From positions 1 through 23,554 of the IMG/VR virus record IMGVR_UViG_3300030104_000277: 23,554 nt of DNA; one strand, written 5' to 3'. Each line of letters starts with the position of its first letter. The stretch's first letter is position 1. Shown here in pieces: positions 2,640 to 23,554 of the stretch. Position numbers and translations under genes: made by a program. The stretch is from a virus. The notes below the pieces were generated by a model. It worked only from the letters and a program-made list of their open reading frames with translations, made no database searches and was not told the origin of the DNA.

Positions 2640-2827
2640 TGGAAAAAGAAATTAAAATAACTTCGGCTAAATATTTGAAAGATGTAATATCTAATGAAAC
2701 TGATACGATTCTTGCAGTTATAAACGGTAAAGAAATATGCGTACCTATAGATGATGATAATAGACACTATCAAAGCATCAAACGACAAGTTGACGCAGGA
2801 ACACTAACGATAGAGGAGGCAGACTAA
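2639..2827 (+). CDS. Short fibre-associated protein, 62 residues
   Basis: The start overlaps the stop of the lectin-like fibre gene (TAATG), so the two are probably translated together. The product contains ITSAKYLKD, a beta-hairpin-like ILAVINGKEICVPID, and DDDNRHYQSIKRQVDAGTLT near the end. I recognise this pattern (NRHY..I.RQVDAG.LTI) as a small family found beside tail fibre genes in many phages, without a firmly known role. It may help fibre assembly or attach to the fibre; neither is shown by the sequence. No membrane segment is present. Confidence 0.7.
   Translation: MEKEIKITSAKYLKDVISNETDTILAVINGKEICVPIDDDNRHYQSIKRQVDAGTLTIEEAD
2814..2820 (+). promoter_or_regulatory. Ribosome binding site of the 423-residue fibre gene
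   Basis: GAGGAGG lies inside the end of the 62-residue gene, about 6 bases before the ATG at 2827. With the TAATG overlap it confirms that start. Confidence 0.65.
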
Positions 2828-4098
2828 TGGCACTAACAAAAGCATCACTAATAGATTTAAATGGACAAGAACTTATTCTTGATGCCGATGCAGATACATC
2901 AATAACTGCAGATACTGATGACCAAATAGATTTTAAAATTGGTGGTACAGATGTTGCTACTTTAACTGCTGGAACTTTAAAAGTAGTCAATACAGGTAAT
3001 ACCGACACTTTAATTTTAGAATCTACTGATGCTGATGCAAATACAGGTCCAGTAATGGTTCTTCATAGAAATTCAGCTTCACCAGCAGAAGGAGATTTGG
3101 CTGGAGAAATAAGATTTGATTCAGAAGATACAGCAGGTAATCAAACAACTATTGCAAAAATACAAGGCATATTAGGGCATCCTAATCATGGTCAATCTTA
3201 TGCCGAAGATGGAAGATTAACTTTTAGTATTATAAAAGATGCAAGTTTAACTGAAGTTATAAGGATATCTGAAGATGCAAGAGTTGGGATTGGTACTAAT
3301 GACCCTGCACAAAATTTACATATTCATTGTGATAGTGGTGATGAAGGTATTCTTTTAAAAAGCACAGGTAATACATCCAATGCTATAACAATAGATGCAA
3401 ATAGAAGTAGTGGAGGTGGAGCATTAGGTGAAATTCGTGGTTTATGGAATGGAACAGAAGTTGCTCGTATAGTATTAAGAGGTGGTGATGATACTACTAA
3501 CAAAGATGATGGTTTTATAACATTTGCTACATCATCTGCTGATAATATTTCAGAAAGAATGCGTATTGCAAGTGGTGGTCAGGTAACAATAGGCACTACA
3601 AATACAGACCAAGCATCGGGTGCAGGGATAAAACTTTTTAATGATGGTAGTCAAGCAAGATGTTTTTTAGTAGGTAGTGGTTCAGGTGGAGAAGGGTTTT
3701 CCATGTATGATGGAAGTAATTACAAATTTTATGTTGGTTATAATGGAACTATAAATGCTACCAATAATTCAATTTCAACTATTTCAGATGAAAGACTAAA
3801 AGAAAATATAAGAGATTTAGATAAAGGACTAAATGATATTCTTAAATTAAAACCAAGACGTTTTGATTGGAAAACAGGCGAAGGTTCAGATACAAAAAAT
3901 GTTTCTGGATTTGTAGCACAAGAATGTGAAGAAGCAGGTTTTGATGAGTTTGTCGGAGATTTTAAACATAAAGAATTAGATGATGCAAAATCTTTTGGTC
4001 AGGGAGGTCTTATTCCTGCATTAGTAAAAGCAATCCAAGAACAACAAACACAGATTGAAGCCTTACAATCTGAAATTAACACTCTAAAAGGAGAATAA
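2827..4098 (+). CDS. Tail fibre with C-terminal S74 intramolecular chaperone
   Basis: This 423-residue fibre has an N-terminal stretch of Asp/Thr-rich beta repeats and a middle with RVGIGTNDPAQNLHIH and SERMRIASGGQVTIGTT, the usual phage fibre beta-helix motifs. The C-terminal domain starts at SDERLKENI, with Ser320 and Lys325. In the S74 family (endosialidase-type chaperones) a Ser and a Lys five residues later form the self-cleaving dyad. The domain assists trimer folding and is then released, so a mature fibre of about 319 residues is expected. The C-terminus is a short coiled coil (EEQ..IEALQSEINTL type). It belongs to the fibre cassette and has a strong ribosome binding site. The receptor is unknown. 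Confidence 0.85.
   Translation: MALTKASLIDLNGQELILDADADTSITADTDDQIDFKIGGTDVATLTAGTLKVVNTGNTDTLILESTDADANTGPVMVLHRNSASPAEGDLAGEIRFDSEDTAGNQTTIAKIQGILGHPNHGQSYAEDGRLTFSIIKDASLTEVIRISEDARVGIGTNDPAQNLHIHCDSGDEGILLKSTGNTSNAITIDANRSSGGGALGEIRGLWNGTEVARIVLRGGDDTTNKDDGFITFATSSADNISERMRIASGGQVTIGTTNTDQASGAGIKLFNDGSQARCFLVGSGSGGEGFSMYDGSNYKFYVGYNGTINATNNSISTISDERLKENIRDLDKGLNDILKLKPRRFDWKTGEGSDTKNVSGFVAQECEEAGFDEFVGDFKHKELDDAKSFGQGGLIPALVKAIQEQQTQIEALQSEINTLKGE
3784..4098 (+). other. S74 self-cleaving chaperone domain (first copy)
   Basis: The domain runs from Ser320 to the end of the fibre. It shows the S-D-E-R-x-K motif, LKPRRFDWK, and GFVAQECEEAG, in the order expected for the family. Cleavage is predicted just before Ser320. 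Confidence 0.82.
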
Positions 4099-6072: not shown

Positions 6073-9000
6073 ATGGCACAAACATATACAAGACAAAGTT
6101 CTTTTATTGATGGTGATACTATCACCGCAGCATTATTTAATGATGAATACAATCAGTTAGTAAATGCATTTGCATATTCATCTACAAGTGCTAGTAATAC
6201 TGGACACAGACACGATGGCACTGCGGGGCAAGGTGGTAATATTCCACAAATTGGTGATTTAGATTTTTTAAACAAAATAGTTGTTGATAGTAGCAATAAT
6301 AGATGGGGATTTTATGTCGAAGTATCTTCTGCTGCAGTAGAACAAATTAGAATACAAGATGGAGCTATTGTTCCTGTTACAGATAATGATATAGATTTAG
6401 GAACAAGCTCTTTAGAATTTAAAGATGCATTTTTTGATGGCACTGTAACTACAGATGCTTTAGTAGCTGACACTGCAGATATAAATGGTGGTACTGTTGA
6501 TGGTGCTACTATAGGAGCTAACTCAGCTTCTACTGGTGCATTTACTACTGTTACTACTACAGGTAATGTAGATGTAGGTGGTAATCTTACAGTCACAGGT
6601 ACAACAACATTTAATGGTGGTACATTAACTCTAGGTGATGCTAATACAGATAATATTGTTTTTGGTGGAGAAGTAGATTCTAATATTATTCCTGACGATG
6701 ATGATACACACGATTTAGGTAGCTCTTCAAAACAATGGAAAGATATATACATAGATGGTATTGCTTATGTAGATGGTATAAATTTTGATGGTACAGCAAT
6801 CACATCAACAGCAGCAGAAATTAATATTCTTGATGGGGTAACAAGTACTGCTGCAGAACTAAATATTTTAGATGGTGTTACATCAACTGCAGCAGAACTA
6901 AACATACTTGACGGAGTTACTTCTACTGCTGCTGAGTTAAATATTTTAGATGGAGTTACTTCAACTACTGCCGAACTAAATATTCTTGATGGTGTTACAT
7001 CTACAACAGCCGAACTAAATATTCTTGACGGTGTAACTGCTACTACAGCAGAGCTTAATATTATGGATGGTGTTACTGCTACTACAGCAGAACTCAACAT
7101 TATGGATGGTGTAACTTCTACAGCTACAGAACTAAATATTGTAGATGGTAATACGTCTGCTACATCCACTACACTTGCAGATGCTGACAGAGTGGTAGTA
7201 AATGACAACGGTACTATGGTACAAGTTGCCTTGACAGACTTTGAAACTTATTTTGAGTCTGCCCTTGATACACTTTCTAATGTTACAACTGTAGGAGCAC
7301 TAAACGCAGGTAGCATTACAAGTGGCTTTGGAGCTATAAACAATGGCTCATCTGCTATTACAACTACAGGTACAATTACTTACGGTTCTTTATCAGATGG
7401 TACAATAACTGTTACAGCTTTTGTAGATGAAGATGATATGGCTTCAAACTCTGCAACGCTTATACCAACTCAGCAATCTGTTAAAGCTTATGTAGACACA
7501 CAACTAACTGCAGAAGACTTAGATGTAACAACTGATAGCGGAACTATTGCGATTGACTTAGATAGTGAAACGTTAACAGTTGCAGGTGGAGAAGGTATAG
7601 ATACATCTGCTACTTCTAATACAATAACAATAGCTGGTGAAGATGCTACAACATCTAATAAAGGTATAGCTTCATTTAGTTCAGATGATTTTACAGTTTC
7701 TAGTGGAGCAGTTAGTCTTGCAACTACTTCAACTGCTGCAGAGTTAAACATTCTTGATGGAGCAACAGTTACTACTGCAGAACTTAATATACTTGACGGT
7801 GTTACATCAACTACTGCAGAACTTAATATCTTAGATGGAGTTACTGCAAATGCAACAGAATTAAATTTACTTGACGGTGTAACTTCTACAACTGCTGAAT
7901 TAAATATTCTCGATGGTGTTACCTCTACTACTGCAGAGTTAAACATTCTTGATGGTGTAACGTCAACCACTGCAGAATTAAATATTTTAGACGGAGTAAC
8001 AAGTACAACAGCAGAATTAAATATTTTAGATGGAGTTACCTCTACTACTGCTGAGTTAAATATATTAGATGGAGTAACCAGTACTGCTACAGAAATTAAT
8101 TTACTTGATGGCTCTACAGCTAATACAGTAGTAAATAGTAAAGCAGTTATTTATGGTTCTAGTGGAGAACTAGCAGGAACACTTTCAACTGCAGCACAAA
8201 CAAATGTTACCAGTGTTGGAACTTTATCAAGCTTAACAGTTTCTGGTGATGTTACTGTAGATACTAATACTCTTAAAGTTGATAGCTCTAATAATAGAGT
8301 AGGTATCGGTAATGCTTCTCCAGATGTATCTTTGGATATTGGTAGCTTTACAGATGCTATACACGTACCAGTTGGTACAACAGCACAAAGACCGGGAAGC
8401 CCTGCAGCAGGATACTTTAGATATAACAGCACAACTGGTGGCTTTGAAGGTTATACAGACGAATGGGGTGCTATAGCCGGTGGTGGTGCAGGAAGTTCTT
8501 CTACTTTTGCTAAGAATACTTTTACTGGAGATGGCTCTACTACAGCCTTTACATTATCTACAAGTATGACCAGTGAAGATGGTCTGATAGTATTTATTGA
8601 TGGTGTTTATCAAGCTGATAATGTTTACTCAGTTTCTGGTACTACTCTGACTTTTGCAACTGCTCCTGTTAATGGTAGAGTTATTGAAGTCTTTCAATTA
8701 GAAGGTGGTATTGTTGGAGTTGCTCCAGTAATTGCTACTATGACTGGTGATGGCTCAGATACTACTTTAGACTTAACTACAAGTCCTGATTCAGAAAACC
8801 AAACATTCGTAACTATTGATGGTGTTGTTCAACATAAAGACACTTACTCAATCTCAGGTAGCACACTAACTTTTAGTGCTGCTCCTCCTAACGGAACTAA
8901 AGTAGAAGCTATTATCTTTAACAATGTAAGTGTTGCAACTTTCCAAGATGCTGATGGCGATACTAAGATTCAGTTAGAAGAAACTACTGACGATGACACT

Positions 9001-10386
9001 ATTAGAATGGACATTGCTGGTACTGAGGTACTAACATTAACTAATAGTGCTATGACACTGAAAGGCACAACACCTACTTTAACTATTGGTGATGCAGGTG
9101 CAGAAGATACTAAGATTGTTTTTGATGGTAATGCTCAAGACTTTTATGTAGGACTAGATGATTCTGCTGACGATTTAATTATTGGTTTAGGTTCAACAGT
9201 TGGTACAACTCCGATAATGTCTTTTGATGAAAATAAAGATGTAACAATTAATGAGGGTAAATTAACAACTTCTGGAGCAAATGGAGTTGACAATCAAGGT
9301 CTTAATATCACTGATACAGGTTATAGCAAAACGCATAAAATTTATGGCGATAACTCATTACACATACAAGCTGATTCATCACAACAAATATTATTCAAAC
9401 CAAATGCAACAGAGGCAGCTAGGTTTAATACTGATGGTAAGCTACTTATTGGTGATACAGCAAGTCATGTTGATGATTTACTGCAAATAGAAACTCCGGC
9501 TTCTGGCGGTGGTCATGGAATTCAACTAAGAAGGAATGATTCTAATACTGACCAAGGTATAGGTCGTGTTATGTTTGGTAATAATACCGATACAGACTTA
9601 GTAACTGTTTCAGCTAAAACAGACGGAGCAACAGATAGCGGAGCTTTGTTATTTTCTACACAAGCAACAGGCGGTGCTTCAACAGAGAGAATGAGAATTG
9701 ATTCTTCTGGAAATGTTGGTATTGGCTCTACTCCAGTTTCAACTTTAAGAAATGATGTTCATTCAACAGAAAAAGGATTACAAGTAGGCAGAGCAGCTAT
9801 GTTATTTTCTGACTCAGGTGTGACTACAGATTTACAAAATAATTCACATTTAAATAATGATGATAATAGAGTTGCTATGACTGGAACTCTAGGAGGTAGT
9901 TTTTATCAACAATATGGTGGTATACACGGATTTTATACAGCACCTGCAGTAGCAGCACCTAATACACAAACACATACTTTAAGATTTAGAATTGCTTTAG
10001 ATGGTACTTTAGCTGGTACAAGTACCACTATATCTTCTTTATCAGATGAAAGAGCAAAGAAAAATATAGAAGACTACACAGGTGGTTTAGATTTAATTAA
10101 AAGTTTAAGACCAAGAACTTTTGAATTTAAAGATACTACAGGAGTAAGAAAAACAGGAACTCAAAGAGGTTTTATTGCACAAGAAATTTTAGAGCAAGAT
10201 TCTTATTGGGTTACAGAAGAAGACGCTTCTGATACTAAAGATGCAGAATATGAATACACAAAAGATACAGAAAAAAGGTATTTAACAACTTTAAATGATA
10301 AAGATGCTGTACTTATTTCTGCAATAAAAGAATTAGAAGCTGTCGTAGCAGATTTAAAATCAAGAATAGAAACATTAGAAAGCTAA
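6073..10386 (+). CDS. Very large tail fibre (1437 residues) with repeats and S74 chaperone
   Basis: The start has TAGGAG seven bases upstream. Order of parts: an N-terminal anchor (RQSSFIDGDTITAALFNDEY, then GHRHDG), beta-strand repeats to about residue 240, nine copies of a 13-residue repeat TTAELNILDGVTS (246-362), a spacer, ten more copies (554-683), AIHVPVGTTAQRPGSPAAGY near 762, two tandem 60-residue domains starting GDGS (817-876 and 890-949), VGIG-type beta-helix segments, and an S74 chaperone from Ser1324 with Lys1329. The AELNILDG repeat is typical of long shafts in cyanophage and marine phage fibres. Mature fibre length after self-cleavage would be about 1323 residues. It is probably the main host-range fibre. 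Antisense frames across the repeats are shadows. Confidence 0.88.
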   Translation: MAQTYTRQSSFIDGDTITAALFNDEYNQLVNAFAYSSTSASNTGHRHDGTAGQGGNIPQIGDLDFLNKIVVDSSNNRWGFYVEVSSAAVEQIRIQDGAIVPVTDNDIDLGTSSLEFKDAFFDGTVTTDALVADTADINGGTVDGATIGANSASTGAFTTVTTTGNVDVGGNLTVTGTTTFNGGTLTLGDANTDNIVFGGEVDSNIIPDDDDTHDLGSSSKQWKDIYIDGIAYVDGINFDGTAITSTAAEINILDGVTSTAAELNILDGVTSTAAELNILDGVTSTAAELNILDGVTSTTAELNILDGVTSTTAELNILDGVTATTAELNIMDGVTATTAELNIMDGVTSTATELNIVDGNTSATSTTLADADRVVVNDNGTMVQVALTDFETYFESALDTLSNVTTVGALNAGSITSGFGAINNGSSAITTTGTITYGSLSDGTITVTAFVDEDDMASNSATLIPTQQSVKAYVDTQLTAEDLDVTTDSGTIAIDLDSETLTVAGGEGIDTSATSNTITIAGEDATTSNKGIASFSSDDFTVSSGAVSLATTSTAAELNILDGATVTTAELNILDGVTSTTAELNILDGVTANATELNLLDGVTSTTAELNILDGVTSTTAELNILDGVTSTTAELNILDGVTSTTAELNILDGVTSTTAELNILDGVTSTATEINLLDGSTANTVVNSKAVIYGSSGELAGTLSTAAQTNVTSVGTLSSLTVSGDVTVDTNTLKVDSSNNRVGIGNASPDVSLDIGSFTDAIHVPVGTTAQRPGSPAAGYFRYNSTTGGFEGYTDEWGAIAGGGAGSSSTFAKNTFTGDGSTTAFTLSTSMTSEDGLIVFIDGVYQADNVYSVSGTTLTFATAPVNGRVIEVFQLEGGIVGVAPVIATMTGDGSDTTLDLTTSPDSENQTFVTIDGVVQHKDTYSISGSTLTFSAAPPNGTKVEAIIFNNVSVATFQDADGDTKIQLEETTDDDTIRMDIAGTEVLTLTNSAMTLKGTTPTLTIGDAGAEDTKIVFDGNAQDFYVGLDDSADDLIIGLGSTVGTTPIMSFDENKDVTINEGKLTTSGANGVDNQGLNITDTGYSKTHKIYGDNSLHIQADSSQQILFKPNATEAARFNTDGKLLIGDTASHVDDLLQIETPASGGGHGIQLRRNDSNTDQGIGRVMFGNNTDTDLVTVSAKTDGATDSGALLFSTQATGGASTERMRIDSSGNVGIGSTPVSTLRNDVHSTEKGLQVGRAAMLFSDSGVTTDLQNNSHLNNDDNRVAMTGTLGGSFYQQYGGIHGFYTAPAVAAPNTQTHTLRFRIALDGTLAGTSTTISSLSDERAKKNIEDYTGGLDLIKSLRPRTFEFKDTTGVRKTGTQRGFIAQEILEQDSYWVTEEDASDTKDAEYEYTKDTEKRYLTTLNDKDAVLISAIKELEAVVADLKSRIETLES
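6808..7158 (+). repeat. First block of 13-residue (39-base) fibre repeats, 9 copies
   Basis: Nine consecutive in-frame copies follow the consensus T-[TA]-A-E-L-N-I-L-D-G-V-T-S. The last two thirds of the block vary (IMDG twice, IVDG once). Codons differ between copies, so the repeat is conserved at protein level more than at DNA level. Confidence 0.95.
7732..8121 (+). repeat. Second block of 13-residue fibre repeats, 10 copies
   Basis: Ten in-frame copies of the same repeat, 573 bases after the first block. Five neighbouring copies are identical at protein level (TTAELNILDGVTS) but use different codons. The end copies diverge (NATELNLLDG, TATEINLLDG). Confidence 0.95.
8521..8919 (+). repeat. 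Two tandem 60-residue fibre domains
   Basis: Residues 817-876 and 890-949 of the large fibre align without gaps: both begin TGDGS, have a central IDGV..., then YS[VI]SG[TS]TLTF and a final AP.NG..[VI]E. They are separated by 13 residues. This looks like an internal duplication of a small beta-sandwich domain. Confidence 0.82.
10042..10386 (+). other. S74 self-cleaving chaperone domain (second copy)
   Basis: It begins at Ser1324 with SDERAKKNI, giving the Ser/Lys pair five residues apart, then LRPRTFEFK and RGFIAQEILEQ, and a C-terminal coiled coil. It is clearly diverged from the copy in the 423-residue fibre, so the two are not a recent duplication. Confidence 0.85.
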
Positions 10387-10635: not shown

Positions 10636-12702
10636 ATGGGTAATAAAAATAAAAACAGACGAGCTGGTATTAGCTCTGTACGTCAAGACTATCGTTCTGG
10701 TGGTCTAGTATCCAAAGAAGGTAATCGACTTAAATTTGACATAGGTGGCGAACCTCCCTTTATAGATGAGAGAGATATATACTTTCCCCCCGGTATAGGA
10801 GGTGGAGGTGGAGGTGGCTCTGGAGGTGGCTCTGGAGGTGGCGGAGGCAGTGATGACTCTGACAACATAACAATTACAGGAGACGTACCAATGTCAACAG
10901 ATGTAGAAGCAACTAGAAAAAAATTAAAAGAACAAGCAGCAGGTCAAGGTGTAAAACTAGATGCACCTCAGTTTCAAAACGTTCAAGCATCGCCTGATTC
11001 TTTCCTTCAACAAGGAACAGGAAACATTACACAACAAATTGAAGCAGACGAATTTACTGCTGCTGCTCCAAGAACAGAACAAGTATCTACCATAACTGCT
11101 CCGTCTCAAGTTCAAGCTCCTACAGTTGCCCCTACTCAAACTGTTTCTCCTCGAGTTACTACTTCAGCCGGTGTTACAAGAGCTGAAGGTGAAGTAAGCG
11201 AAGGTGCTCAAGTTGGTGAAACATCTATAGATAGAGTAGCTCCTATTGAAGGAGTTGATGTTACTCCTGTTGAAGGTGCAGTTGCTCAAAGAGTTGTAGC
11301 TCAAATGTCTCCAGATGCAGTTGCTCAAGCTGCAGAAGTTAGCGGTTTAGATGTTAGAAGAGTTACCAGAGCAAAAGAAGAATTACGAACAGCCGGTGTA
11401 GATGATTTAACAATTGCACAATTAGGTAATGACCCTAAAGCTCTTGAAGCGGAGTTAATGAATTTAACTGACGAGCAAAGAGGTTTAGTAGAAGGATTAC
11501 CTCAAGAAGCTTTAGTAAGTAATCAAATGGATGCCTTACTAAAAGGTATTGAAGATGGTTCAATTCCTGCATGGGCAAGACCAGCAGTTGCAGCAGTTGA
11601 CCAAGCATTAGCAGCTAGAGGTTTAGAAGCTTCAACAGTTGGTAGGGATGCATTATTAAATACTATTATTAGAAATGCATTACCACTAGCCCAACAAAAT
11701 GCTCAAGCTATTCAAGCTAGTATAGCTCAAGAAAGAGGCATTGAAGCTCAAGTAGCAATAGAAGAAGCTAGGTTTTCGCAACAAACTGCATTACAAAATG
11801 CTAATAATGTTTTTCAATTAAATTTAGCTCAGTTTAGTGCTGACCAACAACGAGAAATAGCAAATAGTAAATTTTTACAAACTGTTTCATTAACAAATGC
11901 TAATAATGACCAACAAGCAGCTATTCAGAATGCAGTTTTATTATCGCAAGTAAATTTAGCTCAAGCAAGTATTGACCAACAAAGACAAGTTACTAATGCT
12001 AAAGCATTTTTGTCAATGGACCTTGCTAATTTAACTAACGAACAACAAGCTAATATTTTAAATGCTCAACAACAACAACAAGTTTTATTGAGTAATCAAG
12101 CAGCAGAAAATGCAGCAAGACAGTTTAATGCTACAAGTGAAAATCAAAGAAATCAGTTTATGGCAACTTTAGCTGTTGATGTAGGTAAATTCAATGCAAA
12201 TCAAATGAATTTAATTAATCAGTTTAATGCTACACAAAAGAATGCTGCTGAAGCTAGAAATGTTCAAAGAGAAGTAGATTTAGAAAAATTTAATACAACA
12301 ACAAGAAATCAAATAGAACAATTTAATACAGCTATTGAAAGTAATAGAGTAGAGTTTAATGCAAAAAATGCAATGGTTATTGCTCAATCTAATGCTCAAT
12401 GGCGAAGACAAATAAATACTGCAGATACTGCTGCAGCTAATGCTGCTACTGAAATTGCTGCAAAACAAGCTTTTGATTTAACAGCTCAAGCTCAAGCAAA
12501 TCTATGGCAAGACATGAGAGACCAAGCAGGTTATTTATATGATAAAAGCTTACAAGACCAGAACATCGCTGCAAAATTAACTGCAGAATTTTTGGCTGGA
12601 CAATATACAGATAACAAAGCACTGTCAAATAGTTTTAAGGTAATGCGAGATATGATTCATAACTTAACAGACTATACAGTGAATTATCAAAATTTAGGAT
12701 AA
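10636..12702 (+). CDS. Internal virion (ejection) protein with hendecad coiled coil, 688 residues
   Basis: This is a probable internal head or ejection protein, first of five in a row. Residues 1-52 are basic then acidic. Residues 53-72 are a natural Gly/Ser linker. Residues 75-330 are Ala/Gln/Thr/Val-rich and end in the helical PAWARPAVAAVDQALAARGL. Residues 374-605 form an unusually regular ladder of 11-residue repeats with a hydrophobic at position 2 (examples NLAQFSADQQR, KFNANQMNLIN). The C-terminal 80 residues are a mixed helix (LWQDMRDQAGYLYDKSL). There is no Cys, signal peptide or membrane segment. The place matches T7 gp14/gp15 in an ejection set. The function is inferred from context and helix content; a weak AGG serves as ribosome binding site. 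Confidence 0.68.
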   Translation: MGNKNKNRRAGISSVRQDYRSGGLVSKEGNRLKFDIGGEPPFIDERDIYFPPGIGGGGGGGSGGGSGGGGGSDDSDNITITGDVPMSTDVEATRKKLKEQAAGQGVKLDAPQFQNVQASPDSFLQQGTGNITQQIEADEFTAAAPRTEQVSTITAPSQVQAPTVAPTQTVSPRVTTSAGVTRAEGEVSEGAQVGETSIDRVAPIEGVDVTPVEGAVAQRVVAQMSPDAVAQAAEVSGLDVRRVTRAKEELRTAGVDDLTIAQLGNDPKALEAELMNLTDEQRGLVEGLPQEALVSNQMDALLKGIEDGSIPAWARPAVAAVDQALAARGLEASTVGRDALLNTIIRNALPLAQQNAQAIQASIAQERGIEAQVAIEEARFSQQTALQNANNVFQLNLAQFSADQQREIANSKFLQTVSLTNANNDQQAAIQNAVLLSQVNLAQASIDQQRQVTNAKAFLSMDLANLTNEQQANILNAQQQQQVLLSNQAAENAARQFNATSENQRNQFMATLAVDVGKFNANQMNLINQFNATQKNAAEARNVQREVDLEKFNTTTRNQIEQFNTAIESNRVEFNAKNAMVIAQSNAQWRRQINTADTAAANAATEIAAKQAFDLTAQAQANLWQDMRDQAGYLYDKSLQDQNIAAKLTAEFLAGQYTDNKALSNSFKVMRDMIHNLTDYTVNYQNLG
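10792..10851 (+). repeat. Gly/Ser linker tract
   Basis: Twenty codons, nearly all GGN with scattered serines, encode residues 53-72 of the 688-residue protein. It separates a small N-terminal domain from the long helical body and would be disordered. Confidence 0.85.
11755..12450 (+). repeat. Hendecad (11-residue) repeat ladder, about 21 units
   Basis: Written in rows of 11 residues, residues 374-605 of the 688-residue protein align through ten units, one 12-residue unit (LLSNQAAENAAR), then ten more. Position 2 is Leu, Ile, Val or Phe in most rows, and position 3 or 4 is usually Asn, Ala or Gln. The early part also reads as four 22-residue repeats (each ending near ..DQQR.I.NA..L..V). Such periodicity predicts a long right-handed coiled coil or helical bundle. 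Confidence 0.82.
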
Positions 12703-14535: not shown

Positions 14536-16371
14536 ATGGCAGAAAATAAAGAATTAAATCTAGACTCGTTGTTAGCAGCAAAGCAATACGAAACATCATC
14601 TAGAAAAAAAAGAGAAGATAAACAATACATCAAAGAAGTTCTAACTGATTTTGGTAGTAGATTTATGAGTTCTTTATTAATTGACCAACCGGCTGCTATG
14701 CGTAAAGAATTTATACAAGCTAATTTACAAGATGCTAAATTTCAAGCAGCTATTGAAAGAGAAAAAATAAAACATAAAACAGCTTATGTAGCAGATAGAA
14801 AAGAAGACTTAGATTTTGTTAACTCATTTTCGACTCCAGATATTGGATTTTATAAGTTAGCAGAAAAAAACTTTTTAGCTACTGAAGAAGGTAAAAAATA
14901 TATTGAGTTAGGTGCAGATGATGCTTATTTAGATTTTCCTACAGAAGTTACTGACAGTATTATAAAAAGTAAAAAAGATTTTTTAACAAGTGAAGGTGAA
15001 AGACTAAAGAACTTATATCAACCTTATATTGATAACCCTGATTTAATTATTGAACAATTAACTGCTCCAGACAGATTAAGTAAACAAGTAAGAGATTCAT
15101 TGTATGCTAAGACTTATGCAGATGCAGAGGCTCAGTTTGGAACTTTTAATTTTATTAAAAATTTATTTGGAGCAAACGTTGCTACACATTCTAGATATAC
15201 TTATTTACAAGATGAAATTGAAGCAAGAATAGAAGCTGAAACTCAAAAAATTAAAGAGATAGCAGACTTTAATACTTTTGCTGACGGTAAAAAAGCAAGT
15301 GAAACAACATTAACTTCCCCGTTTGCATTAGGAGCTTCTTATAAAAACAGATTTACTAAAATGAATACTGCTTTTAAAGATATGAGTACAAAAAATGCTC
15401 AACAAAGAGCTAAAGAACTTTTTACAGTACCACCAAAAAGAATACTGGTACTAGAAGACTCAGCTCAAGCAGATGGAGAGTTAATATCTGGTGCTCTATT
15501 AACATCTGAACAAAGAACTAAACTTAGAGAAGATAATAAAACTAATCAGTTACCGCAAAACATATTTTTTGAATCAACTACTGAAGGTTATATTTATGGA
15601 CAATATGATGGAGATGAGTTAAGAAAACGTAAAAGTGTAGAGTTAGGTCTTAATCCTGATTTAGACCCAACACAACAAGTTAAAGTTAGGGCAAAGACTG
15701 TAGACAAAGATGGTAATATTCGTTTTGTAGAACAAAATATTGGTCTGAATGAAGCTTTAATAGCAGACGTTACTTTAGGAGCAGAATTTTTTAGACATAA
15801 AGATTTAACAGAAACTAAGGATATGACCCTAGTTCAACAGAATGATGTTGGCTTTAATTACGAAAGACAATATGTAAAATTCTTAGTAGAGTCTGGTAAT
15901 ATCTGGTATGACCGTAATGGAGTATTACATTATGACCGACCTTCATTAGCTAGAGATTTAACTCAAGCCAATGATGTTTCTAAAGGTTTTAATGAAGCAG
16001 ATGTTATAAATGCTAGATTAACGAGTCAATTAGACAAAGAATCTTTAACAACTGAAGACTTTTTTAATCAAAGTATTGATATAAAAATTAACACTATTAG
16101 AAATTCTAATATGCCACCAGATTTACTAGAAGAAAAACTTGGTCAACTCGAAAATTTAAATACCGAAAAAGATAGACAACAAGAGTTTTTAATTAATCTT
16201 GTTATGCCACCAAAAGATTTAAGAGGCACAATTGTAAAATATAGTAATCATTATTTCTCAGCCGGTGAATTAACTGATAGACAAAAAGAAGCTTTATACA
16301 ATCGTTTTATAATGGACTTTAATGACAATGAAGACTTTCCATTATTAAAAACTATCTTTCAAATTAAATGA
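14536..16371 (+). CDS. Internal virion protein, 611 residues (gp15-like position)
   Basis: The protein is hydrophilic and mostly helical in the N-terminal 270 residues (many Lys/Glu, for example SSRKKREDKQYIKEVLTDFG, then a helical array to about residue 270), more mixed with strands around 300-440 (RILVLEDSAQADGELISGAL, NIFFESTTEGYIYGQYDGDE), and helical again at the end. There is no Cys, signal peptide or membrane segment. It sits directly before the 1331-residue gp16-like protein, and their genes overlap (ATGA), as expected for partners made together. T7 gp15 forms the middle part of the trans-envelope channel; the same role here is inferred from order and size only. AGGA lies upstream of the ATG. 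Confidence 0.6.
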   Translation: MAENKELNLDSLLAAKQYETSSRKKREDKQYIKEVLTDFGSRFMSSLLIDQPAAMRKEFIQANLQDAKFQAAIEREKIKHKTAYVADRKEDLDFVNSFSTPDIGFYKLAEKNFLATEEGKKYIELGADDAYLDFPTEVTDSIIKSKKDFLTSEGERLKNLYQPYIDNPDLIIEQLTAPDRLSKQVRDSLYAKTYADAEAQFGTFNFIKNLFGANVATHSRYTYLQDEIEARIEAETQKIKEIADFNTFADGKKASETTLTSPFALGASYKNRFTKMNTAFKDMSTKNAQQRAKELFTVPPKRILVLEDSAQADGELISGALLTSEQRTKLREDNKTNQLPQNIFFESTTEGYIYGQYDGDELRKRKSVELGLNPDLDPTQQVKVRAKTVDKDGNIRFVEQNIGLNEALIADVTLGAEFFRHKDLTETKDMTLVQQNDVGFNYERQYVKFLVESGNIWYDRNGVLHYDRPSLARDLTQANDVSKGFNEADVINARLTSQLDKESLTTEDFFNQSIDIKINTIRNSNMPPDLLEEKLGQLENLNTEKDRQQEFLINLVMPPKDLRGTIVKYSNHYFSAGELTDRQKEALYNRFIMDFNDNEDFPLLKTIFQIK

Positions 16372-19300
16372 ATAGATACACTATAGAAGAACCTGATTTT
16401 TTTTCTATTGCGGAAACTCCTACTTCTAAAGAAGTCGAAGAAGAAAAAATAGCAATAGACAATAAACCATACAGATATAGAATTGATGACAGAGCAGACA
16501 TTGATTTATTTGGCTCTGAGGTAAAATCACAACCTCGTCAAACTTTTCAAAGCGTATATGAGTTTGAAAATGATGAAGATGTTTTAAAAGATTGGGATAT
16601 TCTTGCCAATGCTATTAATGAAAATGGCGAAGGTATAGCTGAGACTTTAAGAGACACAGACTTTAATTTAACAAAAGCTATGGTAAGAGCTGGTCAAACA
16701 AATCAATTTACTCAGCAAGAAAAAGATGCTTACAATCGATTACGAACTAAATTTGCTAATACAAAATTAAAAGGCTTTTACGAATACTTTGAATTAATAG
16801 GTAATGCAACTGTTGATACTGTATTCGACCCTTTTACCTTAGTAGCTTTAGTAGCAGCTCCTTTTACTGGAGGAACTTCTTTAGCAGCCAAACAAGCAGC
16901 AGCTACAGCAGTTTTACAAGGTTCGAAAAGATATGCATTAGCTAAAGCTATTCAAGCAACAGCAACTAAACCTGTTACCTATACAACTCTTGAAGGAGCA
17001 GCTTGGAATGGACTTCACAACTATTACAATCAAGATATAGATGTTGATTTAGGTAATCGAGACAATATTGATTGGAAAGAAGTTGGAACATCTTCAGCAA
17101 TAGGAGGAGGAGTTGGTCTTGGTCTTGGAGCTGGTGTTGGCTTATACAGTGGAGCAAAATATTATAATAGATTGCAACGTTATCATAATGAAGATTCGAT
17201 TTTAAAATATATAGATGGTTTAGATAAAGAAGCTGTTAAAAGTGTAGACGAAGTTACCGGAGCTAATAAAAAGTTTTATGAAGGCAAAAAAAGTATTGCG
17301 GGTAAAACAGCTTCAGAGTGGGTAGATTATACAATATCTAGATTACCTATGTTTGGTAAAGCTACCAGTGAATTTTTATCTTTAGCAAAAGGTGCAGACA
17401 GTGTTAAAGATTTTATTTTAAAACTTAGATACGATGGCACAAGAACTATCTTTGGTACAAAACAAGCTGGTGATTCAGTTGGAGCATTATCTTATTTTGA
17501 AAATTTAGCAAACTATAATGGTAAATATGCTGGTATAGGTATTAATCGAGCATTTAATCATATTGGTTATGGTCCGGGAAGAAAATTAACTGCTAAAGAT
17601 AATAATGCTTTACATCAATTAATGTTAGATGATAACACTAAAAAGTTTATACATACTGATGGTGTTGAATACGACATACCTAAAGAAGTACAAGAAGCTT
17701 ATTTTGGTAAAAAAGAAATAGGTTTAGTAGGTATCAAAGATATTATGGATGATATTTTTGAAGAGGGAGTTAAATTAGGCGAGTTTACTCCGGGTCAAAA
17801 AGTTCTTAATTATTTTCCAAGAGTATTTAATTACGGAGCACTTTCTAAAAATCAAGATAGATTTAAAAAATTATTAAAGAAATACGGTACAACCGATGAA
17901 ACTACTGGAGAGTTTACTCCTTATGCTGCTACCGATGCAGATGCCGATGCAATTGTAAAAGACATGTTAGACTTGAGATATAGTCAATTTGATGTTAAAC
18001 CAAAAGGCAGTGGCACTAGAAGCTTTCAACAACATCGAGTATTTAGTGAAATACCTGATGAAGAGTTAGGTTTCTTTTTAGATAATACTGGCAGTTCTTT
18101 TGTTAGCAATAATGTGATGGAAGTTCTAAGTGAGTACGTAGGCAGTGTTGCACAATTATATGCTCGTAAAAAAACTTTTGGAGTTAGAAATATAGAACAG
18201 TTTGAAAATACTACATTAAAAAATATTAAAGACGAATTAAAACTGTTAGGTGCAAGTGATGAACAAATAGCTACCACTGCTAATGGGCTTACAAATTTAT
18301 TCGGAGAAGTTACAGGATTATCTGGAAAAGGATTAGCACCTGAAGGACCATTAGGCAGAGCTGGAAACATTGCTTCTGAATCTGTTAGATTAATTCAACA
18401 AGCTGCTCACTTAGCCCTTGCAGTGCCTTCAAGTATTACTGAACCTTTATTAATGTTTCAAAGAGTTGGGATTAGAGATTATCCCAGAGTAGTGCATAAT
18501 ATTGCTCAAGGTATTTGGAAAGAAATAACAAAAAATACCGACCAACTTTATCAAATAGGTAAAGCTAGACTAGGACTAGGTAAAGCTAAGTTCAAAGATT
18601 TAGATGATGAATACTGGCAAGAATTATATGCTGGTGGAATGGCTATTGAAAACAATATTCTTGAAGGTTTAGATAGATTAGCAAGTGGTGAAAGATTTTA
18701 TAACAAACGTTTAAGAACTTGGTCTGATAGATTTTTTAAAATGAATTTATTAACACAGTGGACTAGAGCTGTGCAAGGTGCAGCTTTTACTTCCGGAAAA
18801 CTTTTAATTAGAAGAAACCTACAAAAACTTTACGACCACAAATTAGGAGTTGCAAAATTAACTGAAGGTGACTTTAGAGGTCTAGGTATGAACAAAAAAG
18901 AATACTTAGAAAAGCAACTACAAGAGTTAGGTATTGACCCTGAAGAAGGCATGGCTTGGTATCGAAGTTCATTAGATGACAATTTAGACTTTAATGTAAA
19001 TAAATCTCAGCAATCTCCTTTTTATAAAGAAAAGTATTTAGAAGGGGCTAAGAGATTTACTAATGAAACTATTTTAAACCCTAATAGAGCAGCAGCAGCT
19101 AAATCAATATTAATGCAAAGTGGTTGGGGTAAACTTGCATTTCAATTTATGAGTTACCCGACTTTATTTAATAATGTAGTAATAAAAAGAATGTTAAATG
19201 AACTTAGAGAATATCCAGTGCAGACTTCACCTAAACTTTTAATTACAGGATTTTTAATGACTTCTATTGCTATGCAAATGAATTTACTTAGGAATCCAGA

Positions 19301-20363
19301 AAGACATACTAAAATGTCGGATGAAGAAAATGTTTTAGAAGCAGCAGAAAGATGGGGTGCATTAGCTCAAGGTTCAATGGTGAAAAGAACTGCCGAAGCT
19401 GCTAAGTACGGTTCAGGATTTACAGGCTCTTTAACAAGAGGAGTCTTTGGTCCATCTGTAGGTGATGCTTTAGATTCTATTGAATATAAATTAGGTCCAA
19501 CTTCTATTGTTGCTCGAAATATACCTTTTTCGCAAGTTATAAAAAGATTAGAACCAGAAAAATATAAAGAGTTTCAAACATGGGCTAAAGAAATGGATGA
19601 AAGTTATTTTGGTTTACTTGATGATGAAACTTCTTATCAAGAATATAGCTCATATAGAACTGGAGGTTTAGTAACAAATGTGCCTAATGCTGCTCCAGAA
19701 CCAGAAAAAAGAGTTAATAAAATGACTGGTGTGCCTTATGATATTGAAGCTGGTCCATCAGCACAGCCAGAAAAAACCAGAGCAGGTTTGAGTGAGGAAG
19801 GTAAGTTACTAGCTACATTAGCTCGTAGACAAAAGCTTAGTGAAGGAGGACAGCCTCAAAGTTATCAAGATATTTTGTTTAATTTTATCGCACAAGCCGA
19901 AGATGCTAAATTATATGAACGTATGTTAAAAGGAGAAAATCCTGAATTAACAGCATATTTACCAACTCCCAATGATGTACAAACTATTGGGTTTGGTAGA
20001 ACTAGAGGTGTAACTAAAGACACAAAAAGCACTTTAGAAGAAGAAAAAAATAAATTAAGAGAAGAACTTGAATTATTTGAAAGAGAAACAATTAAGAGTA
20101 TTGGTCAAAAAAGATTTGATAGTTTAAATAATAATCAAAAAGCAGCAGTAGTAAGTTTAATTTTTAATGTTGGTCGAAGTGCATTCGATGGAACAAACGC
20201 ACAAAAAGCAATAAAATCTGGAGATTTGGATACATTTATGAAAGAAGCATTTGACCCGCAACTAGGCTTTACAAAACAAAGAAATGCTGATGGACAACTA
20301 GAAATTTTAGAGGGCTTAAAAAATAGAAGACAAGCAGAGAAAGATTTATTTTTAAGAAACTAA
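16368..20363 (+). CDS. Large ejection protein (gp16-like) with C-terminal GH24 lysozyme domain
   Basis: At 1331 residues it is close to T7 gp16 (1318). Residues about 140-180 hold VFDPFTLVALVAAPFTGGTS; TTLEGAAWNGLHNYYNQ and a Gly-rich hydrophobic IGGGVGLGLGAGVGLYSG follow near 205-265, all typical of marine phage gp16-like proteins. A long helical body runs to about 1080, then GGLVTNVPNAAPEPEKRVNK and TGVPYDIEAG. The last 165 residues are a phage-lysozyme (GH24) domain: GENPELTAYLPTPNDVQTIG, LNNNQKAAVVSLIFNVG and GLKNRRQAEKDLF. Candidate catalytic residues are Glu1190 and Thr1206; the usual Asp position is occupied by Pro/Thr. The likely job is to enter the periplasm at infection, cut the cell wall and form a DNA channel. 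The start overlaps the previous stop and lacks a clear ribosome binding site. Confidence 0.8.
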   Translation: MNRYTIEEPDFFSIAETPTSKEVEEEKIAIDNKPYRYRIDDRADIDLFGSEVKSQPRQTFQSVYEFENDEDVLKDWDILANAINENGEGIAETLRDTDFNLTKAMVRAGQTNQFTQQEKDAYNRLRTKFANTKLKGFYEYFELIGNATVDTVFDPFTLVALVAAPFTGGTSLAAKQAAATAVLQGSKRYALAKAIQATATKPVTYTTLEGAAWNGLHNYYNQDIDVDLGNRDNIDWKEVGTSSAIGGGVGLGLGAGVGLYSGAKYYNRLQRYHNEDSILKYIDGLDKEAVKSVDEVTGANKKFYEGKKSIAGKTASEWVDYTISRLPMFGKATSEFLSLAKGADSVKDFILKLRYDGTRTIFGTKQAGDSVGALSYFENLANYNGKYAGIGINRAFNHIGYGPGRKLTAKDNNALHQLMLDDNTKKFIHTDGVEYDIPKEVQEAYFGKKEIGLVGIKDIMDDIFEEGVKLGEFTPGQKVLNYFPRVFNYGALSKNQDRFKKLLKKYGTTDETTGEFTPYAATDADADAIVKDMLDLRYSQFDVKPKGSGTRSFQQHRVFSEIPDEELGFFLDNTGSSFVSNNVMEVLSEYVGSVAQLYARKKTFGVRNIEQFENTTLKNIKDELKLLGASDEQIATTANGLTNLFGEVTGLSGKGLAPEGPLGRAGNIASESVRLIQQAAHLALAVPSSITEPLLMFQRVGIRDYPRVVHNIAQGIWKEITKNTDQLYQIGKARLGLGKAKFKDLDDEYWQELYAGGMAIENNILEGLDRLASGERFYNKRLRTWSDRFFKMNLLTQWTRAVQGAAFTSGKLLIRRNLQKLYDHKLGVAKLTEGDFRGLGMNKKEYLEKQLQELGIDPEEGMAWYRSSLDDNLDFNVNKSQQSPFYKEKYLEGAKRFTNETILNPNRAAAAKSILMQSGWGKLAFQFMSYPTLFNNVVIKRMLNELREYPVQTSPKLLITGFLMTSIAMQMNLLRNPERHTKMSDEENVLEAAERWGALAQGSMVKRTAEAAKYGSGFTGSLTRGVFGPSVGDALDSIEYKLGPTSIVARNIPFSQVIKRLEPEKYKEFQTWAKEMDESYFGLLDDETSYQEYSSYRTGGLVTNVPNAAPEPEKRVNKMTGVPYDIEAGPSAQPEKTRAGLSEEGKLLATLARRQKLSEGGQPQSYQDILFNFIAQAEDAKLYERMLKGENPELTAYLPTPNDVQTIGFGRTRGVTKDTKSTLEEEKNKLREELELFERETIKSIGQKRFDSLNNNQKAAVVSLIFNVGRSAFDGTNAQKAIKSGDLDTFMKEAFDPQLGFTKQRNADGQLEILEGLKNRRQAEKDLFLRN
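19860..20363 (+). other. GH24 (T4-lysozyme-like) domain at the end of the ejection protein
   Basis: Residues 1165-1331 contain the substrate-cleft motif TIGFGRTRGV preceded at the right distance (16 residues) by Glu1190, then the helical LNNNQKAAVVSLIFNVGRSA and the closing NRRQAE. No in-frame start with a ribosome binding site precedes it, so it is part of the larger protein. Confidence 0.82.
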
Positions 20364-20605
20364 TGTTATTGTATACAGAAAAACAACTAGATAGAGCTTA
20401 TCAGATAGACTGTAGAGCTCGTACTCGCAACAATACTCCTTGGATAAAAAGAGAAGAGTTTAGAGACATTTACGAAGATTTGATGGAAATCTATATGTTG
20501 CAGTTAGACAAACATCATGCATTAGACCCCGATGCTCCAGATTTTATTTTAGATTCATTGAACGAAATAATAGGACAAAGTTTGCATTTTGAACCGGAGG
20601 ACTAA
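20363..20605 (+). CDS. Small conserved phage protein, 80 residues, unknown function
   Basis: Both ends overlap neighbours by one base (TAATG), so it is coupled to the ejection protein before it and the holin-like gene after it. The product starts MLLYTEKQLDRAYQIDCRAR and is helical and acidic, with EEFRDIYEDLMEIYMLQLD in the middle and a Cys at residue 17. There is no membrane segment or signal peptide. I recall the MLLYTE.QL..AY...EEFR.I.ED.ME pattern in many marine phages at the same place, between the ejection and holin-like genes. No function is known to me. A role in lysis timing or virion assembly would fit the place but is a guess. Confidence 0.68.
   Translation: MLLYTEKQLDRAYQIDCRARTRNNTPWIKREEFRDIYEDLMEIYMLQLDKHHALDPDAPDFILDSLNEIIGQSLHFEPED
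20596..20600 (+). promoter_or_regulatory. Ribosome binding site of the holin-like gene
   Basis: GGAGG lies 4 bases before the ATG at 20605, inside the end of the 80-residue gene, alongside a TAATG overlap. Confidence 0.65.
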
Positions 20606-21039
20606 TGGGTTTTCCGTTTGAGATTATAACAATGCTAGGCTCTACCGTATTGGGTGGGGTCATGAGTATATGGGCAGAAAATAGAAAAGCTAAAGCCGAA
20701 GAACAAAGACTTCTTATCACAAGAGGCGAGTTTGAAATGAAAGCAGTAAAAGCTGCTAGAGATAATAAAGATGTAGGCTTTCAATGGACTCGTAGAATTA
20801 TCGCACTAACTGCAGTTTTTGCAATTATTGTTTTACCTAAACTTGTAGCAATATTTGCTCCAGATGTTTCAGTAACTGTTGGGTATACACAATTTAAACC
20901 CGGATTTTTATTTTTTACTAAAGATGTAGAAATATTTAAATGGGTTACATTTGAAGGGTTAGTAATTACGCAGTTAGATACTAATTTAGTATCAGCTATT
21001 ATAGGAATGTATTTTGGTGGGAGTCTAGTCAAGAAATAA
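20605..21039 (+). CDS. Holin-like membrane protein with three hydrophobic segments, 144 residues
   Basis: Hydrophobic segments lie near residues 5-22 (FEIITMLGSTVLGGVMSIW), 62-86 (TRRIIALTAVFAIIVLPKLV) and 120-142 (ending SAIIGMYFGGSLVKK). The linker between the first two is a charged helix (NRKAKAEEQRLL). Three segments, small size and a place after a lysozyme-bearing protein fit a phage holin, and the ending resembles the three-segment holins of gene-transfer-agent type. VSVTVGYTQFKPGFLFF between segments two and three is a pattern I recall from marine phage proteins often labelled holin. A holin would form holes in the inner membrane to time lysis. Lysis activity has not been shown; a virion membrane protein is possible. 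Confidence 0.68.
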   Translation: MGFPFEIITMLGSTVLGGVMSIWAENRKAKAEEQRLLITRGEFEMKAVKAARDNKDVGFQWTRRIIALTAVFAIIVLPKLVAIFAPDVSVTVGYTQFKPGFLFFTKDVEIFKWVTFEGLVITQLDTNLVSAIIGMYFGGSLVKK

Positions 21040-21052: not shown

Positions 21053-22075
21053 ATGAAAAGAGGGCTAATTGTTGGGGCGATATTATTATTTGCATTAAAT
21101 GTGCAATCAGACCAGACAGGTGACTGTACTGCTGGTACGCAATATTGTGAGCAAAATAGTTTAAATACTACTAATAATACTACTACGAATAATACTAATA
21201 CAAATACTAATACCAATAATAATACTAATACTAACACAAATACCAATACCAATACTAATACCAATACTAATACTAATACTAATGTAAATACAAATACTTC
21301 TACAAATACAAATGTAAATACAAATACGTCAACAAATACTAATAATAATAATAACGTAAATACTAATACTAATACTTCTACTTCTAATTCAACTGTTAAT
21401 TCAACAGTTAATCAAAACGTTAATAACAATAACACTAGTACTTCGACAAACACTAATAACAATACAAATACTAATAATACGACATCTGATAATACTAATA
21501 AAAATTACAATGAATCTAATTCAAATTCAAATGTAAACACTAATAATACAAATACTAATAATTCTACAGCTAATAATACTAATAATAATTATAATAAATC
21601 AGAGTCTACACAAACAATAAATCAAAATATAAATCAAAAAGCTCCTCCAGCTTCTGCGATTGCACCGAGTATTATGTCTTACTCACAGGACCTTTGTACC
21701 ACTGGAGTCTCTGGAGCTTTTCAAGGTCAATTATTTGGTATCTCTGGCGGTAAAGCAATTCGAGATGAAAACTGTGAGAGATTAAAATTATCAAAATATT
21801 TATACGATACTGGTATGAAAGTAGCAGCAGTGTCTATTCTTTGTCAAGACCCTAGAGTATTTAAAGCTATGAGCAATGCTGGAACTCCTTGTCCATACAA
21901 AGGTAAAATAGGAGACGAAGCTAAAGTTGCTTGGGCAGCAAACGTAGAAGAGACTCCAACATATAAAGAAGATTTAAAAAATTACGTTGCTAAGTGTAAA
22001 AAGACTAGAAATCTAAAAGGTATAAAAAAATCTGGCAGCACTTGTCGTAGAGAATTTCATGCACAAAGTAGCTAG
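21053..22075 (+). CDS. Exported protein with Asn/Thr repeat and Cys-rich C-terminal domain, 340 residues
   Basis: A Sec-type signal peptide is clear: MKRG, a hydrophobic core LIVGAILLFAL, and likely cleavage after VQS at residue 19. Next is a short part with two Cys (GDCTAGTQYC), then residues 38-196 made almost only of Asn, Thr and Ser. The C-terminal 144 residues form a conserved-looking domain with six Cys: SYSQDLCTTGVSGAFQGQLF, NCERLKLSKYLYDTGMKVAA, VSILCQDPRVFKAMSNAGTP. Eight Cys in all fits disulfides outside the cytoplasm. I recall this C-terminal domain (APPSAIAP..M.YSQD.C..G.SGA, NCER.KLS..L) in uncultured marine phages. Function is unknown. The repeat probably makes a long flexible stalk; surface display or secretion are possible. 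Confidence 0.75.
   Translation: MKRGLIVGAILLFALNVQSDQTGDCTAGTQYCEQNSLNTTNNTTTNNTNTNTNTNNNTNTNTNTNTNTNTNTNTNTNVNTNTSTNTNVNTNTSTNTNNNNNVNTNTNTSTSNSTVNSTVNQNVNNNNTSTSTNTNNNTNTNNTTSDNTNKNYNESNSNSNVNTNNTNTNNSTANNTNNNYNKSESTQTINQNINQKAPPASAIAPSIMSYSQDLCTTGVSGAFQGQLFGISGGKAIRDENCERLKLSKYLYDTGMKVAAVSILCQDPRVFKAMSNAGTPCPYKGKIGDEAKVAWAANVEETPTYKEDLKNYVAKCKKTRNLKGIKKSGSTCRREFHAQSS
21164..21640 (+). repeat. Asn/Thr low-complexity tract of about 159 codons
   Basis: The tract is built mainly from AAT/AAC and ACT/ACA/ACC codons, alternating as Asn-Thr over long runs, with blocks of Asn, Ser and Val (NVNTNTSTN type). Part of it (about 21195-21290) is a near-perfect 6-base repeat. All units keep the frame. 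Confidence 0.93.
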
Positions 22076-23554
22076 TGAAAAGATTAGGATTAATTTTTTT
22101 ACTGTTAATTAGTGCAAATATATCTGCTCAGTATATTTACGAATCTAATCAAGATTTATTTGATTTAACTAATCAATCTAATACAACAAATTTAAATAGC
22201 GGTGATGACCAACTATCTGCTGCTTTTAATTTAGATTTTACGTTTCAGTTGTATGATAATTCTTATACATCTGCACGTATGGCAACTAATGGTTGTCTAC
22301 ATTTTGGGTTAGGAACTGGCAATGTAAATTTTAATAATTACTGCGGTGACTATACCCCTGACCCACTGCCCCAATACACTAATACACTGTTTCCTTTTTG
22401 GACTGACTTAATACGAGATGGTGGGTCACAAATGTTAGCTAAGAATTTTAGCGATAAATCTGTATTTGGTTGGTATGATTTAAGAGAATTTAATCGTGCT
22501 AATTCAGACAATAGTTTTGAAGTTATACTTTGGACTGATAGCACTTTTGAGTTTCGTTATGGTGAATTAGATGTTATAAACCATGATGTCTTGATAGGTG
22601 AACAAGGTAATTCATCGCAGATTTATATGTACCTTTTTCATGACGAGTGTTCCACAGGCACAACAAATGTTTCAGGTACATGTGTCAATATTAATTGGAA
22701 CAATACCGTTGCTAATAGTTTATTAGAAAACGGTGGGTCATTGTATGGCAGTAATCTAGATTGTAGTGACCCTTTAAATGATTCGGCATGTCCGGGTTAT
22801 TGGGAAGCTTTTGATGATTTACAATGTGATTTAGACCCACAGTATGCACCCTCTTGTCCGGGCTATAGCTTTGAAAATGACATTGGCTATTTTGTATTAG
22901 AAGAAGATTTTGGTTATACCGAAGAATATGAACAAGACCAATTAGGGTATGACGAAGATTATGAAACAGAACAGTTTGGATATTCTGATGATTGGCTTGA
23001 AGATGATGGGCAATTTTTAGGACAAGAACCAATTGAAGACTGGCTTGAACCTGAAACTATATTTACTGAAGAGGGTCTTATAGTTTTAGAAGAGTATGAT
23101 AGCATGAACGAAGAGGTCTACATAGACTTTGATGTTCAACCGTTTGATGATGAGCCTATGTTAATAGCTTTACCATCGATTGAATATGACCCATTACAAC
23201 GTTTAAATGTTCTTGATACTAGAGAATTAGTAGACTTGTATGAATTTGAAACAATAATTAGAGACGAGATATTAAATGAAGAAGAAATTAATGACGTGGC
23301 TTTTGAAGACTTCGAAGAAATTGAAGAATGGTTTGAAGAAGAGTTGGAAACAATTTCACAAGATGATGAAGTCATCGAGATTGTCCAAAATAGTGAACAA
23401 CCTCTATCCGAAATCGAAGAAGAACAAGAAGTCATAGAAGAGATAGCCGAAGCCGACCCCACAATCAGAGAGGAAGGAGGTCGAAGTAACATGGATATGA
23501 ATGTTGCTATGTCTATTGTGGCTAATACTATAACAACTGCTGTTAACAGTGTGA
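22075..23554 (+). CDS. Exported protein with nidogen-like domain and acidic C-terminal half (partial, GTG start)
   Basis: The frame opens at GTG overlapping the previous stop (TAGTG) and runs without a stop to the window edge, 493 codons. A signal peptide follows (MKRLGLIFLLLISANISA, cleavage after residue 18). Residues 50-195 resemble a NIDO (nidogen-like) domain: SARMATNGCLHFG, LPQYTNTLFPFWTDLI, SVFGWYDLRE, NSFEVILWTDSTFEFRYG. Residues 230-264 are Cys-rich with two CPGY motifs around YWEAFDDLQCDLDPQYAPS. From about 274 to 465 the sequence is extremely rich in Glu and Asp, with FGYTEEYE/LGYDEDYE repeats. The end visible here (MDMNVAMSIVANTITTAVNS) looks helical. It is the second exported protein in a row. 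Adhesion or a role at the host surface is inferred from the domain; I know of no proven function. Confidence 0.75.
   Translation, partial: MKRLGLIFLLLISANISAQYIYESNQDLFDLTNQSNTTNLNSGDDQLSAAFNLDFTFQLYDNSYTSARMATNGCLHFGLGTGNVNFNNYCGDYTPDPLPQYTNTLFPFWTDLIRDGGSQMLAKNFSDKSVFGWYDLREFNRANSDNSFEVILWTDSTFEFRYGELDVINHDVLIGEQGNSSQIYMYLFHDECSTGTTNVSGTCVNINWNNTVANSLLENGGSLYGSNLDCSDPLNDSACPGYWEAFDDLQCDLDPQYAPSCPGYSFENDIGYFVLEEDFGYTEEYEQDQLGYDEDYETEQFGYSDDWLEDDGQFLGQEPIEDWLEPETIFTEEGLIVLEEYDSMNEEVYIDFDVQPFDDEPMLIALPSIEYDPLQRLNVLDTRELVDLYEFETIIRDEILNEEEINDVAFEDFEEIEEWFEEELETISQDDEVIEIVQNSEQPLSEIEEEQEVIEEIAEADPTIREEGGRSNMDMNVAMSIVANTITTAVNSV
22222..22659 (+). other. Nidogen-like (NIDO) domain
   Basis: The region shows the NIDO order: a strand with ATNG.L.FG, then LP...T.L.PFW.DL, a V.GWY strand and a F.V.L..D...F.YG strand. 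NIDO domains are extracellular in animals and occur in some bacterial surface proteins. The match is by motif order, read by eye. Confidence 0.55.
22894..23470 (+). repeat. Acidic repeat-rich region of the exported protein
   Basis: About 190 codons are dominated by GAA, GAT and GAC. The first part has spaced GY[TD]E motifs about ten residues apart; later it becomes long Glu runs broken by Ile, Phe and Trp (EEIEEWFEEELE type). Confidence 0.8.

Follow-up and report, generated by a model that had tools for sequence, protein, structure and literature searches.

The DNA analysed here (the window) is a stretch of 23,554 nucleotides, positions 1 to 23,554 of the IMG/VR virus record IMGVR_UViG_3300030104_000277, and it ends inside a long open frame which we call gene B. 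The initial annotation, made from the letters of the window alone, had described this frame as GTG-started and running off the edge. The frame starts with GTG at 22075 and remains free of stops for 493 codons up to the window end at 23554 (plus strand, as are the parts of gene B, gene A and the genes at 20605-21039 and 16368-20363 described below), in comparison to a longest open run of 152 codons in 200 mononucleotide shuffles of the window. Close relatives also start with GTG, and ATG is found at this position in other clades. The parent record (G000), an IMG/VR virus contig of 36,268 bases, continues directly after the window with ten Ns and then with an apparent change of frame, and a frameshift just past the window was what the initial annotation had named as evidence against such a gene. 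The ten Ns are a scaffold gap (parent record 23555-23564, which is L002:3556-3565). The flanks of the gap have six bases in common (GTGTGA), and the relative L003, with 98% identity to the window protein, is continuous across the site (AACAGTGTGAGTGG). Thus, the frameshift is a scaffolding artefact that breaks gene B artificially, and a true frameshift past the window edge was ruled out. Extending the frame beyond 23554, as had been advised, revealed that gene B is intact and reaches its stop at position 24238 of the parent record; in near-identical phages it is one intact frame of 715 residues, and the length in intact relatives from its clade is 712-720 residues. The frame opened by the GTG at 22075 is a real gene.

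The product of gene B is modular. Residues 1-18 (22075-22128) form a signal-peptide-like start (MKRLGLIFLLLISANISA-QYIY), judged by eye from the sequence, in which a hydrophobic stretch is followed by QYIYE or a variant of it that is conserved in the family. A NIDO-like and RemA-N-like beta domain follows (residues 19-224, 22129-22746), as indicated by a structure model, a sub-threshold PF06119 match, a match to RemA and substitution rates, all described below. The next region (residues 225-268, 22747-22878) is Cys-rich and has two CPGY motifs, at Cys 239 and Cys 261; in relatives a Cys repeat of the C-x-GY-x2-A-x4-QC type is present in one to five copies. Weak matches of these repeats to cathepsin L and CPW_WPC were regarded as chance similarity on Cys-rich sequence. 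Residues 269-472 (22879-23490) make up an acidic stalk, predicted to be disordered, with 74 Asp/Glu against 5 Lys/Arg in 204 residues (36% Asp plus Glu). A Ser/Thr-rich linker begins at 23491, occupies the window up to 23554 and continues beyond the edge, where it is followed by a conserved C-terminal tail. The signal-peptide-like start, the two CPGY motifs and the acidic part that the initial annotation had listed are all present, and its description of a secreted late gene product that is not a usual virion protein was supported.

Gene A (21053-22075) lies immediately upstream, and its TAG stop overlaps the GTG of gene B by one base. It has a signal-peptide-like start, Asn/Thr-rich repeats (21113-21620), whose length differs greatly among relatives, and a conserved 4-Cys domain (PHROG 20531) that also occurs in cultured pelagiphages and roseophages. 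We found gene A in at least 588 confirmed IMG/VR loci and in 11-12 of 50,697 phage records. Gene order was then counted in the 80 gene A loci most similar to the gene A of the window, 54 of which had a complete next gene. Genes A and B overlapped in 52 of the 54; the gene after A carried the B tail motif in 53, and in 53 a protein ending in NPL came after B. A NIDO-like N-domain was present in 45 of the 54 next genes, a share that is biased upward by ranking on similarity to the window's gene A. The third gene, C, is predicted to encode an inner-membrane protein with a periplasmic coiled coil and the ending NPLA. Hydropathy indicated one transmembrane (TM) segment in all 65 gene C proteins, and the summed net charge of these proteins was +79 for the part before this segment and -85 for the part after it, so the coiled coil should lie in the periplasm. 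This topology of C, as well as the export of A and B, is strongly suggested by the sequences. The gene after A in the pelagiphages encodes a secreted protein whose N-domain is unrelated or CBM_4_9-like and which also has an acidic stalk and a tail; the next gene encodes a small protein with a TM segment and a coiled coil. Gene B is a member of a conserved, presumably late three-gene cassette, A-B-C, and consists of an exchangeable N-domain on a conserved tail. Hundreds of phages, marine and from other environments, carry the cassette.

Comparison of the B tail profile of the window family with the tails of the CBM-type B proteins of cultured phages gave a weak result (7% probability). In a search among 504 phage open reading frames (ORFs), the top matches included the B genes of HTVC023P, Baldr, HTVC033P and HTVC202P, yet with E values of only 0.07-0.6, and gp53 of HTVC115P gave a significant B tail match (E 5.6e-5). 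Since the profile comparison is weak, the homology of the two kinds of tail rests mainly on gene order. HTVC115P has two C-like proteins, gp49 and gp52 (L115:11234-11662 and 12005-12367), of which gp49 is the nearer match to gene C of the L198-type environmental contigs.

The initial annotation had read the N-domain as a nidogen-like (NIDO-like) extracellular domain, and this likeness was supported, at a level below the Pfam cut-off. PF06119 (NIDO) scored 13.4 bits on L003, 12 bits in the phage's own genome, as two collinear sub-threshold pieces, and 18.7 bits on the best relative, L206; the Pfam gathering cut-off is 25 bits, which neither gene B nor L206 reached. The similarity itself is real; both share the pattern NG..F, W-D-L and later Trp/Phe/Tyr and Gly positions. 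The domain was modelled together with the Cys region (pLDDT 87, pTM 0.80), and neither the full 715-residue model nor the isolated domain gave a significant match in fold searches, in which no NIDO structure was recognised; no PDB chain exceeded the best score, Z 4.8, which was to parts of sugar-active enzymes. For profile comparison, no bona fide bacterial NIDO proteins were found among the reachable genomes.

A profile of eight diverse N-domains (A6) matched a single chain in the PDB, residues 49-223 of RemA, the gliding adhesin of Flavobacterium johnsoniae (PDB 8gl6 chain D), with an E value of 7.5e-11. A narrower, 10-member profile matched RemA with E 2.9e-6, and RemA was not listed for a 49-member profile (A4). 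It was also missing from the fold-search results, an absence which does not rule the relationship out. On the profile evidence, the N-domain of B is homologous to the RemA-type N-terminal domain over its length, and we label it NIDO-like and RemA-N-related rather than a NIDO member. RemA serves in gliding as a surface adhesin; it contains a lectin domain and a type 9 secretion C-terminal domain (PMC12618676). The kinship concerns the N-terminal ~175 residues of RemA, and the likeness may extend to Sec export, surface location and adhesin function; the lectin domain and the type 9 domain belong to RemA, and no NCBIfam match to the latter was obtained in the scanned B proteins at E values up to 1. 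This kinship to a surface adhesin lends further support to the adhesin-like order of domains noted earlier.

The NIDO-like domain was the best conserved part of gene B and the acidic part the least conserved. Between L003 and its relatives, the ratio of nonsynonymous to synonymous substitution rates (dN/dS) was 0.06-0.09 for the NIDO-like domain, in comparison to 0.30-0.41 for stalk plus linker, with part of the dS values near saturation; these ratios indicate strong purifying selection on the N-domain and loose constraint on the stalk. In some relatives, such as L184, the NIDO-like domain is kept and the acidic part is nearly gone (in L184 at most 14% Asp plus Glu per 80 residues, against a median of 50%), so the acidic part is replaceable or dispensable. 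The idea of the initial annotation that gene B serves to bind divalent cations or cationic polymers was rejected on account of this variability and dispensability, and that of a charged stalk gained support.

The B N-domains of HTVC033P, HTVC202P and Baldr are 73-76% identical and their A proteins 65-73%, despite terminases that show 22-23% identity over short stretches or cannot be aligned; thus, the cassette moves between unrelated phages. HTVC023P and HTVC033P share 59% identity in A, 69% in C and 48% in the B tail, whereas their N-domains are only 29% identical, indicating replacement or independent divergence of the B tip. The polymerase and the tail protein of the window phage have their closest counterparts in the pelagiphages HTVC115P, HTVC103P and HTVC104P, and the B of HTVC115P has another N-domain than the window type. 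A search of IMG/VR with the window protein yielded 32 loci, and a profile search for the NIDO-type gene B at least 515 confirmed candidate loci. The NIDO-type gene B had no convincing match among the 50,697 phage records and was found in none of 84,980 prokaryote genomes, where gene A was present only on 14 contigs, nearly all of them from metagenome bins; an origin of the gene from the host was rejected on these grounds.

Taken together, A-B-C most likely forms a late envelope-spanning complex that binds surfaces, and the product of gene B probably acts in the envelope of the host cell as this cell dies. The three proteins would be made late, as suggested by the position of the cassette beside tail and lysis genes, and placed in the host envelope, with C in the inner membrane and its coiled coil in the periplasm, and with A and B exported by Sec. 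The conserved C-terminal tail would dock B on C and/or A: the tail is conserved, and its distances covaried best with those of C (r 0.87), in comparison to 0.86 with A and 0.59-0.86 for other pairs. The linker would serve as a spacer, and the NIDO/RemA-like N-domain would bind a host surface structure, probably an outer membrane glycan. As to the purpose, we tentatively favour masking, in which A-B-C ties up surface sites on infected cells and debris. With these sites occupied on late-infected cells as well as on the debris of lysis, progeny and competing phages would not be re-adsorbed.

The role proposed for the cassette is analogous to that of T5 Llp, which the phage makes and places in the envelope, where it blocks a surface receptor. 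Llp is small and lipidated and binds FhuA from the periplasmic side (PMC9586334), whereas gene B is large and has no lipobox Cys for a lipidated N-terminus. Several points weigh against masking. Llp, the masking protein used for comparison, is a lipoprotein, and A, B and C of the window phage are all without a lipobox. The high correlations among all cassette parts may reflect shared ancestry only, and the conservation of the N-domain is unlike what a receptor arms race would produce. A route for B across the outer membrane was looked for and not found, so display outside the cell, as the initial annotation had suggested, is conjectural; B may be periplasmic until lysis.

Next in rank, though in our view unlikely, is an accessory function in lysis, in which A-B-C would link the inner membrane (through C) to the outer membrane (through the glycan-binding domain of B) and help to break the envelope in a spanin-like role without a lipoprotein. 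Gene C resembles the Rz/Rz1 spanins in being an inner-membrane protein with a periplasmic coiled coil among lysis genes; the i-spanin features, an N-in TM segment and a periplasmic coiled coil, were predicted in 65 of 65 proteins, and gene C has a weak match to PHROG 739. At many loci the cassette has holin, endolysin and lysozyme genes as neighbours, and a simple pattern search detected no lipobox ORF in the 36 kb of the window phage record. Matches among the 99 flanking ORFs of 35 diverse loci were to endolysin families (five ORFs), Rz-like spanin (four), phage lysozyme (two) and a GTA holin (one). Lysis genes located within three genes after C include a holin (L206), a GH19-type endolysin (L175) and an Rz-like spanin (L149). 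However, the cassette differs from Rz/Rz1 in having no lipoprotein partner, and membership in the two-component spanins was rejected, as an o-spanin lipoprotein with a lipobox is missing from it. In some phages an Rz/Rz1-like pair stands beside the cassette (four neighbouring ORFs are Rz-like, and L149 was checked in sequence), so the cassette, often placed among lysis genes, is not itself the spanin there. In HTVC202P, Baldr and Mosig it does not adjoin annotated lysis genes. The pair in L149 (8279-9047) directly follows the cassette and consists of an Rz-like i-spanin and an overlapping, out-of-frame lipoprotein ORF resembling an o-spanin.

Gene C also recalls the Mu gp25 releasin (DUF2730), as it is small, has one N-terminal TM segment and lies near an endolysin. 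DUF2730 (PF10805) scored 18.7 bits on gene C against a cut-off of 24.9, on a coiled coil that matches many families. Mu gp25 has an N-out, C-in topology (PMC9239132), opposite to the N-in, C-out topology that the charge balance predicts for gene C, and membership in this family was rejected on both score and topology.

It is improbable that B is an attachment or aggregation factor that, released or displayed at lysis, sticks debris, progeny and infected cells to new hosts or particles and so increases contacts in dilute sea water: its adhesin-like order, the related surface adhesin RemA and the signal-peptide-like start agree with such a role, but gene C and the conserved tail suggest an anchored B, and no outer membrane secretion route was found for it. 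The least probable function is that of a tail adhesin, a virion protein for host recognition. Such a role has been inferred for the carbohydrate-binding counterpart from metaviromic islands, and the protein given that name in AP013540 is a gene B. On the other side, proteins that are assembled into virions in the cytoplasm do not usually have a signal-peptide start and a membrane partner, and phages whose terminases are unrelated carry the same N-domain.

That counterpart, named "carbohydrate binding domain" protein by Mizuno et al., occupies the same slot of the cassette, with A before and C after it, and has a signal peptide, a beta domain, an acidic stalk and a tail; it differs in its N-domain, which is CBM_4_9-like, itself at a sub-threshold score. 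The passages of Mizuno et al. that were consulted do not remark on the cassette. In the literature searched, which lacked most subscription papers, we found no description of the cassette, of its NIDO/RemA-like version or of the partners A and C, and no paper on nidogen-like phage proteins. The cassette is apparently undescribed so far, and there is a fair chance that it represents a new kind of system. Tentatively, we suggest that A-B-C could be a phage machine of a new kind: a mobile cassette, expressed late, for an envelope-spanning complex whose glycan-binding tip is exchangeable and which is distinct from holin, endolysin and spanin. Carried by phages that infect SAR11, Roseobacter and other aquatic bacteria, it would control how released progeny or rival phages encounter the host surface.

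Cultured phages of SAR11, whose cells are among the most abundant in the sea, carry the cassette, and if it alters adsorption, superinfection or lysis, it bears on the spread of these phages in dilute water. It also gives a context to the "carbohydrate binding domain" protein, the product of a variable gene often reported from marine phages, and joins genes labelled "hypothetical", "OmpA", "tonB" and "lysozyme" into one testable system. Three such labels are likely misannotations: the "putative lysozyme" gp73 of CRP-207 (L126:3292-3873) resembles gene C, with a TM segment, a coiled coil and the ending DNPL; the "OmpA family protein" gp53 of CRP-810 (L127:4276-5031) is a relative of gene A; and the "transport protein tonB" of MW202481 (L124:4739-5845) is the gene adjoining A.

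Upstream of gene A, the window encodes a small membrane protein (20605-21039) that matches PHROG 38283 and is holin-like by its position, and a large internal virion-type protein (16368-20363; PHROG 7348) with a C-terminal phage lysozyme domain at residues 1193-1324 (PF00959, E 1.3e-16). A staphylococcal-nuclease-like gene was seen in eight cases among the ORFs flanking the cassette (e.g. L130:3398-3826). Farther upstream in the window, a very long tail protein (6073-10386) has TAELNILDGVTST repeated many times in near-identical copies and carries an S74-like chaperone motif at its C-terminus, and a second S74-like C-terminus ends the gene at 2827-4098.
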